Shown: positions 230 through 28,789 of the stretch, piece by piece | Numbering within the stretch: the first letter of the stretch is position 1 | Layout: the number at the start of each line of letters is the position of its first letter | From: Spirochaetota bacterium | Lineage (GTDB): Bacteria; Spirochaetota; UBA4802; UBA5368 | Reading direction: 5' to 3' | DNA length: 32,514 bases | NCBI GenBank assembly: GCA_004297825.1 | Contig: SCSX01000031.1 | Location: 1-32,514 of the forward strand | Translations under genes and position numbers: made by a program | Notes under the pieces: generated by a model | Database searches by the model: none | What the model was told of the DNA's origin: nothing | The model's input: the letters and a program-made list of their open reading frames with translations, nothing else

Positions 230-628
230 ATGAAGATCGTTGCGAAAATTTCGCGCGCATGTCTCTTCGCCTGTATCGCAGTATTCCTGAATGCAGCATG
301 CGACGCCCCCCGTATCCAGTTTGCCGAGCAGGAGTTCGATTTCGGGACCGTCGCTCCAAAGGCCGCGCTCACCCATGTCTTCACCTTTCGGAACACGGGG
401 GCCGGCACGCTCACCATCACGAAGGTGAGCCCGGGTTGAGGCTGCACCTCCGTCCTTCTCACCGAGAAGGACATCCCCGCCGGCGGCGAGGGCAGGATTG
501 AGGTGGGACTCACCGCGGCGGCCAAGGCGGAAAAGATGTCCAAGACGGTGACGGTTTATACCAATGACAAGTCGAATCCCAAGCTGTATCTCAAGGTGAT
601 CGCCACCGTAACCCTGCAGGGACAATAG
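230..628 (+). CDS. Candidate selenoprotein: DUF1573 lipoprotein with in-frame TGA at codon 70
   Basis: The frame opens at ATG 230, meets TGA at 437-439, then stays open with fully coding character to TAG 626-628, giving 132 residues if TGA is read through. The N-terminus is a signal peptide ending in a relaxed, spirochaete-like lipobox (FLNAAC, Cys24). The rest is a DUF1573 domain: FDFGTVAP, then VFTFRNTGAGTLTI, then PG[TGA]GCTSV, then IPAGGEGRIEV and KTVTVYTND. In DUF1573 proteins this position normally reads SCGCT, so TGA replaces exactly the first conserved Cys. A perfect 9-bp hairpin begins 12 nt after the TGA. The TAG lies one base before the glgX ATG, which supports translation to the second stop. 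No strong Shine-Dalgarno site is seen before ATG 230. What the domain binds is unknown. The alternative is a nonsense mutation. Confidence 0.75.
452..472 (+). promoter_or_regulatory. Bacterial SECIS-like hairpin downstream of the in-frame TGA
   Basis: GTCCTTCTC (452-460) pairs perfectly with GAGAAGGAC (464-472) around the loop ACC. The apical loop lies about 22 nt after the TGA at 437-439, inside the spacing known for bacterial SECIS elements, which sit within the coding region. The loop lacks the GGUC of the E. coli fdhF element, but bacterial SECIS loops vary. The stem also encodes VLLTEKD. Confidence 0.6.
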
Positions 629-26869: not shown

Positions 26870-26974
26870 GACATCTCCAGACCTTTTTTATTATCTTATG
26901 CTTATGTTACTGATAACTGTGCCTGTGAATCAAGTCAGTAAATTTTGTTTTTAAGAGTATTAAAGGAGTATTTT

Positions 26975-28789
26975 ATGAAGTTTCTCAGATTTTCGGCAAT
27001 GCTACTGATCGCGGCAACTCTGGCGTTTACCGCCTGCGGAGGCAGCACAGAAAACTCTGTTTCACCCGGGCCATCGACAAAAGCGATCACGGCCTTCAGC
27101 ATTGATGGTCTTTCAGCTTCCGGTATTATAAGCGAAGCTGGCCATAGTATAGCGATATATGTACCTAATGGAACCGATCTAACTGCACTTGTGCCGACTA
27201 TCACTCATACCGGGGCAAGCATCAATCCGGCATCCGGAACAGCGCAAGATTTTACCGGCCAGGTTACTTATACCGTAACAGCAGTGAATGGCTCAATGCA
27301 GGATTATATAGTGACAGCCACTAAAACAGTTTCAATTACATTTGAAAAAAACGACACCGGGGCTGCCGGGATAATGCATAAACAGGCAATTGCAACCGGT
27401 TTAACAATGAACTTAGCTGCCAATACATTTACAATGCAAGGTTTTAAATTTGCAGGATGGGCGGAAACATCAGAAGGCAGCGTTGCTTATGGAGATAAAG
27501 CAAGCTATACAATGGGTACGTCGGATGTAACTTTATACGCAATGTGGTCAAGATGGACAAAACTCCTGGGTGCAAATGGTGTATATACATCTACAAACAG
27601 TGTATCTGTAGATTCAAACGGCAACAGCTATCTTATAGTAGGGGCAGCCGGCGATGGCAATCTTGACGGACAAACAATAAGCGGGAACTGGTCTAAATTT
27701 TTTGTCGTTAAATATAACAGCTCGGGGATAAAGCAATGGTTGATTCCATTGGGCAGCTTTCCGGATATTTCGGTTGGCAAAATATCTGCAGACCAGAGCG
27801 GTAATTTTTTTGTTACAGGATATACAACAACTGATCTTGATGGAGAGACATTAACCGGCGGCTACGAGAATGCATTTGTTATGAAATATAATAGTTCCGG
27901 AGTAAAACAGTGGACAGAACTTCTGGGGACGGAACTTCTGGGTGAAGCAGGGGCGCCGGCCTCCTTTTCGCAGATAGAAGGATATAGTATATCTGCAGAC
28001 CAAAGCGGTAATTGTTATGTTACAGGCACAACTGCTGATCCAGTATGGGGTTACCTCTGTACATTTACAGCCAAATACAATTCTTCCGGAGAAAACCAGT
28101 GGGTAAAGCTTCTCGGCGAAACCAATAAACTTACAGCATATGGGTATAGCATATCAACAGACTCAGGCGGCAATTCATATATTACAGGTAGTACATATTC
28201 CGATCTTGATGGAGAGACTAAACCGGATGTTTATGCTATTTTTACAGTTAAATATGACAATTCAGGAAACAAACAATGGACGAAACTTCTGGGCGGAAAT
28301 AAAAGTATAATGACAAAAGGTATTTCAGCAGACTCAAACGGTAATTGTTATATTACAGGTTATACAGAAGGGGCTTTCGACGGACAACCCAAAATCGGTT
28401 GGTCCAATGTTTATCTGGTCAAGTACGACTATGCAGGGACAAAGCAGTGGACAAAATTTTTCGGGGCGAGCAATTCATATACTCATGGATCCGGAATAGC
28501 TGTAGACTCAGGCAATAATATATATGTTACAGGCGACACGAATGGGAATCTTGACGGAGAAACAAGCACAGGTAATTATAACGCATTTGTGGTAAAATAT
28601 AACGATTCCAAAATACGGCAATGGACAAAACTGAAAGGTGCTAATGCATATGGTTACAGCATATCTATCGATTCAGGTGATAATATTTATGTTGCAGGCA
28701 TTACATATGCTGATTTTGACGGGGAAACATATAGAGGTGGGGGCAGCCTGATACCGGATTTATTTATAACAACAATATTTAATCCATGA
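26975..28789 (+). CDS. SBBP-repeat beta-propeller lipoprotein
   Basis: The product is 604 residues from ATG 26975, with AAAGGAG (26962-26968) just upstream. The signal peptide ends in lipobox FTAC (Cys20), so it is probably surface- or periplasm-exposed. Order: a DUF5018-like Ig-type domain (~30-120; ITAFSIDGLSASG, TYTVTAVNGSMQDYIVTATK), an InlB/Listeria-Bacteroides-type repeat (~122-195; GFKFAGWAETSEG, VTLYAMWS), then seven SBBP repeats (VDSNGNSYLIVG type, each with an LDGET loop and a FxVKYNSSGxKQW strand), enough for a complete seven-bladed propeller. Such proteins are common in Leptospira; the ligand is unknown. A 15-base tandem duplication near 27917-27945 adds GTELL. The gene is AT-rich and bracketed by palindromes P1 and P2. 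Confidence 0.85.
   Translation: MKFLRFSAMLLIAATLAFTACGGSTENSVSPGPSTKAITAFSIDGLSASGIISEAGHSIAIYVPNGTDLTALVPTITHTGASINPASGTAQDFTGQVTYTVTAVNGSMQDYIVTATKTVSITFEKNDTGAAGIMHKQAIATGLTMNLAANTFTMQGFKFAGWAETSEGSVAYGDKASYTMGTSDVTLYAMWSRWTKLLGANGVYTSTNSVSVDSNGNSYLIVGAAGDGNLDGQTISGNWSKFFVVKYNSSGIKQWLIPLGSFPDISVGKISADQSGNFFVTGYTTTDLDGETLTGGYENAFVMKYNSSGVKQWTELLGTELLGEAGAPASFSQIEGYSISADQSGNCYVTGTTADPVWGYLCTFTAKYNSSGENQWVKLLGETNKLTAYGYSISTDSGGNSYITGSTYSDLDGETKPDVYAIFTVKYDNSGNKQWTKLLGGNKSIMTKGISADSNGNCYITGYTEGAFDGQPKIGWSNVYLVKYDYAGTKQWTKFFGASNSYTHGSGIAVDSGNNIYVTGDTNGNLDGETSTGNYNAFVVKYNDSKIRQWTKLKGANAYGYSISIDSGDNIYVAGITYADFDGETYRGGGSLIPDLFITTIFNP

Follow-up and report, generated by a model that had tools for sequence, protein, structure and literature searches.

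A probable DUF1573 selenoprotein with an atypical recoding region in an order of uncultured spirochaetes

The DNA analysed here (the window: 32,514 nucleotides of contig SCSX01000031.1, Spirochaetota assembly GCA_004297825.1) holds near its start two closely spaced genes on the forward strand. The frame of the first, at positions 230-628, reads M...PG-U-GCT...GQ, contains TGA 437-439 as its sole internal stop and is closed by TAG 626-628. Read through the TGA it would encode a selenocysteine (Sec)-containing DUF1573 protein of 132 aa, with the putative Sec at residue 70 in a U-G-C motif. The second, at 630-2768, is glgX, encoding a glycogen debranching enzyme (TIGR02100, 800.1 bits, cut-off 640.9), and a single base (629) separates the TAG from its ATG, exactly the arrangement pointed out in the original prediction. 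A glgX homologue lies directly 3' of the Sec-DUF1573 gene at 14 loci, and the only DUF1573 match in the window's genome is the one adjoining glgX. That readthrough might tune the translation of glgX is a guess. Much further downstream, at 26945-28789 on the same strand, the window also holds a partial match to a LipL53-type SBBP beta-propeller lipoprotein model of Leptospira (214.6 bits, cut-off 400).

Across the TGA, the PF07610 (DUF1573) model spans residues 29-124 at 86.7 bits, against a gathering cut-off of 26.1, and TGA 437-439 stands where the family's CGC motif has its first Cys. Continuity of the frame through a TGA is in itself no evidence, because the GC-rich window holds 40 further TGAs that are preceded by 60 or more open codons and followed by 50 or more; what goes beyond chance is the homology on both sides. 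At the N-terminus (230-301, forward strand), a signal peptide with probable lipidation at Cys24 is predicted, and the protein is probably exported and membrane-anchored. Of the lipoprotein signal proposed earlier, the Cys is present at this site in 25 of 30 homologues, while the lipobox of this particular copy (NAAC) is weak and imperfect and the N-terminus of the structural model has low confidence.

The column occupied by the TGA is strongly conserved. Within the window's order, 30 homologous loci were fetched, and TGA occupies the same column, again as U-G-C, in 28, with Cys in the other two. This conserved in-frame UGA facing Cys in homologues is the pattern expected of a bacterial selenoprotein. 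A scan of named genomes yielded 80 loci, the nearest of them in uncultured Spirochaetes. TGA forms were found there in Spirochaetota, an Acidobacteria MAG, Stahlbacteria, Myxococcota, Nitrospirota, Desulfobacterales, CSSED10-310 and an Olavius-associated bacterium, and Cys forms in Bacteroidota, Geobacter, Planctomycetota and others. On a tree of 94 rows, the Sec/Cys label switches at least five times on well-supported branches and ten times on the best tree: Sec and Cys have been exchanged several times. A plasmid collection gave three weak matches only, all to annotated DUF1573 proteins of Bacteroidota. Two further homologues depart from the common form: one (L079, 4111-4425) has two in-frame TGAs, and a motif search of the matched stretch found no [U/C]-x-[U/C], and the other, a TGA-type homologue in genome G135 (L032, 1501-1827), also carries a TAG near the C-terminal end of the matched stretch.

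The host genome (4.9 Mb in 96 contigs) encodes the full set of genes expected of a selenoprotein producer, namely tRNA-Sec, SelA, SelB and SelD. The tRNA-Sec has the anticodon tca and lies beside selA and selB on contig C37; the selB match covers positions 2-336 of 581, scores over the cut-off and falls in an open frame of 831 aa. The host selD (contig C25; L049, 1501-2427) has an in-frame TGA of its own and very likely encodes a selenoprotein as well; the hairpin behind that TGA has GGA as its loop, which lies at the usual distance. Across the order, the TGA-type DUF1573 gene is present in 32 of 46 genomes, and selA was found in 31 of these 32, compared with six of the 14 genomes in which the TGA-type gene is absent (Fisher p 9e-5, a value that ignores relatedness). 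The exception, G198 (81% complete), has the TGA gene and gave no selA match; G207 (72% complete), which has a Cys copy, gave none either.

Could the TGA simply be a true stop, truncating a dead DUF1573 gene, or a sequencing error? The fragmented state of the assembly would allow for error, yet the identical TGA recurs in dozens of separate assemblies, and six close pairs of homologues show dN well below dS both before and after it. In all six pairs the share of synonymous differences is lower after the TGA, and codon identity at the same amino acid, measured over homologue pairs, is 0.57-0.63 in codons +1 to +19 and 0.38-0.40 elsewhere. The stretch following the TGA is under purifying selection, and we regard a pseudogene or an error as vanishingly improbable. 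An equally minute chance attaches to UGA being read in this lineage as an ordinary amino acid (Trp, Gly or Cys). The continuation of the frame through the TGA would fit such a reassignment, but several large open reading frames of the window end in TGA, the host has tRNA-Sec, selA, selB and selD, homologues have Cys at the TGA column, and extra RNA structure is found in the Sec set. Insertion of Sec at UGA 437 is thus almost certain on comparative grounds, since TGA conservation, host machinery, selection on both protein and RNA after the TGA, and Sec/Cys exchange all support it. The original prediction had proposed a DUF1573 selenoprotein with TGA in place of the first Cys, and had named missing Sec machinery, a sequencing error, and decay after the TGA as outcomes that would speak against it; on each of these points, and on the presence of Cys or TGA in relatives, the proposal stands.

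The RNA following the UGA contains two adjacent hairpins on the forward strand. Hairpin 1 (452-472) has a perfect 9-bp stem and an ACC loop, with 21 nt from TGA to loop, and is more stable than synonymous-codon shuffles (z -2.82, p 0.004). Hairpin 2 (475-492) has a bulged stem and a GGC loop, with 42 nt from TGA to loop, and its mean z is -2.06 in 28 members of the order. Folding of nt +10 to +42 against synonymous shuffles gave a mean z of -1.77 in 51 Sec genes and -0.06 in 39 Cys genes; over the hairpin 2 region, a wider comparison set 31 Spirochaetota (-1.95) against 20 further Sec genes (-0.83) and 43 Cys genes (-0.04). One pair of hairpin 2, between alignment columns 42 and 52, occurs as C-G, U-A and G-C, so that pairing survives changes on both sides, with few independent tree events, too few for a sign test. 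Two other candidates were set aside: an extended stem around hairpin 1 (nt 5-16 with 42-54), in which 72% of cells pair but covariation does not exceed that of shuffles, and hairpin 1 itself, treated as a helix covarying at fixed columns, because its register shifts between homologues and makes fixed-column counts weak.

The published bacterial SECIS model (PMC13188914) has a loop of 3-9 nt with a G in its first two positions, located 16-37 nt after the UGA, an upper stem of 4-16 bp, and an MFE <= -7.5; it is no absolute requirement, because a subset of selenoprotein genes fails it (PMC13188914). In the window's gene, no hairpin at 16-37 nt after the TGA agrees with this model in full. The hairpin originally reported after the TGA is there, with its perfect stem and its advantage over synonymous controls, but lacks the loop G that the model demands. 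Hairpin 2 is the only window hairpin obeying the loop-G rule, and agrees with the model in every respect except spacing (42 nt). Among 31 Spirochaetota homologues, a loop-G hairpin with energy <= -7.5 occurs at 38-46 nt in 26 and at 16-37 nt in four. Invariance of the GG loop proves nothing alone, because the conserved Gly-Gly of the protein dictates part of it. The GGC loop of hairpin 2 is the likeliest candidate for the SelB contact. We tentatively propose, at somewhat less than even confidence, that the DUF1573 selenoproteins of Spirochaetota and Desulfobacterales would have a distinct SECIS class made of two tandem hairpins, in which folding of the first, as a spacer, would place the GG loop of the second, at 39-42 nt from the UGA, where SelB can reach it. 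This two-hairpin SECIS is a proposal and not a finding.

At the protein level, AlphaFold predicts an Ig-like domain (mean pLDDT 88.9) in which U-G-C sits in a turn between strands 61-68 and 73-77. Among solved structures, 2qsv and HYDIN-type domains come closest. For function, we turn to a paralogous spirochaete clade (L063, L067, L068 and L075), every member of which has ArsP permease and VKOR-DsbA genes as neighbours. Genes for Thioredoxin_3 and DGC proteins are added in L063, L067 and L075, those for thioredoxin and DsbD_TM proteins in L067 and L075, and L075 (1-6500) further holds genes for an ArsR-type regulator and an SBF-family transporter. These Sec-DUF1573/ArsP/VKOR-DsbA clusters may represent a system for thiols or metalloids outside the cytoplasm. 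The neighbours of the paralogous clade point to a thiol or metalloid redox role. Given the motif and this context, U70 and C72 plausibly form a reversible selenenylsulfide, in a protein acting as an extracytoplasmic partner in thiol redox or metal(loid) handling, an assignment that we hold to be somewhat better than an even bet. The window gene's own neighbour, a cytoplasmic glycogen enzyme, counts against a redox role. It might also be that the protein is a selenoprotein whose U-G-C binds a metal or metalloid (e.g. Cu, Hg or As) instead of undergoing redox cycling. The ArsP permease beside the paralogous clade would agree with this, as would the ArsR-type regulator and SBF-family transporter of L075, while the VKOR-DsbA, thioredoxin-like and DsbD-like genes of the same clusters favour thiol redox; we consider metal binding in place of redox cycling unlikely, though far from negligible, and the two roles are compatible and not mutually exclusive.

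Taken as a whole, the account that we favour is that of an exported UGC-type DUF1573 selenoprotein with RNA-directed Sec decoding and an inferred redox role, and we consider it very probable. A single Ig-like (ASH/HYDIN-type) DUF1573 domain would carry the U-G-C motif where a turn joins two strands; tRNA-Sec and SelB would decode UGA 437 as Sec; and decoding would be directed by RNA structure in the ~55 nt 3' of the UGA, hairpin 1 followed by hairpin 2. On this basis a little-noticed selenoprotein family now reaches an order of uncultured spirochaetes, and its conserved Sec singles out the U-G-C of this domain of unknown function as an active site that can be tested. Because the two-hairpin signal lies beyond the published SECIS range, it allows a direct test of the distance from the UGA at which SelB can act.

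UGC-type DUF1573 selenoproteins have been covered in reviews (PMC9312934, PMC13188914), which cite Zhang and Gladyshev 2007 and an origin in an Olavius symbiont, and the original uncertainty as to whether such proteins were on record is thereby settled. No prior description of the spirochaete branch or of its two-hairpin recoding signal was found in the literature. NCBIfam has a model for an "OS_HP2 family (seleno)protein" (NF041425), with which the window protein shares the domain and the Sec position in U-G-C; the Desulfobacterales and Olavius-associated members also have a second hairpin after the TGA resembling that of the window. The window protein differs in its phylum, in its glgX neighbour and in its score, 85.8 bits against a curated cut-off of 100; of the members tested, those from Desulfobacterales and the Olavius-associated ones reach 140-149 bits and the spirochaete ones 76-91. 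Judged by these scores, it is placed as a sister branch to the curated OS_HP2 subfamily and not as a member. The NCBIfam model thus leaves it below cut-off, and standard gene calling would cut it at the TGA. Cys-containing DUF1573 proteins (PF07610) share the domain and the motif, except that Cys stands where Sec does here, and their genes show no excess RNA structure after the codon. With the SECIS consensus (PMC13188914), the window's gene shares stem-loops directly after the UGA, one of them with a small loop beginning GG, and differs in the place of the loop G, which hairpin 1 lacks and which in hairpin 2 lies at 42 nt, outside the 16-37 nt of the consensus. The spirochaete proteins add a new branch to a selenoprotein family already known, with a recoding signal that departs from the published model.
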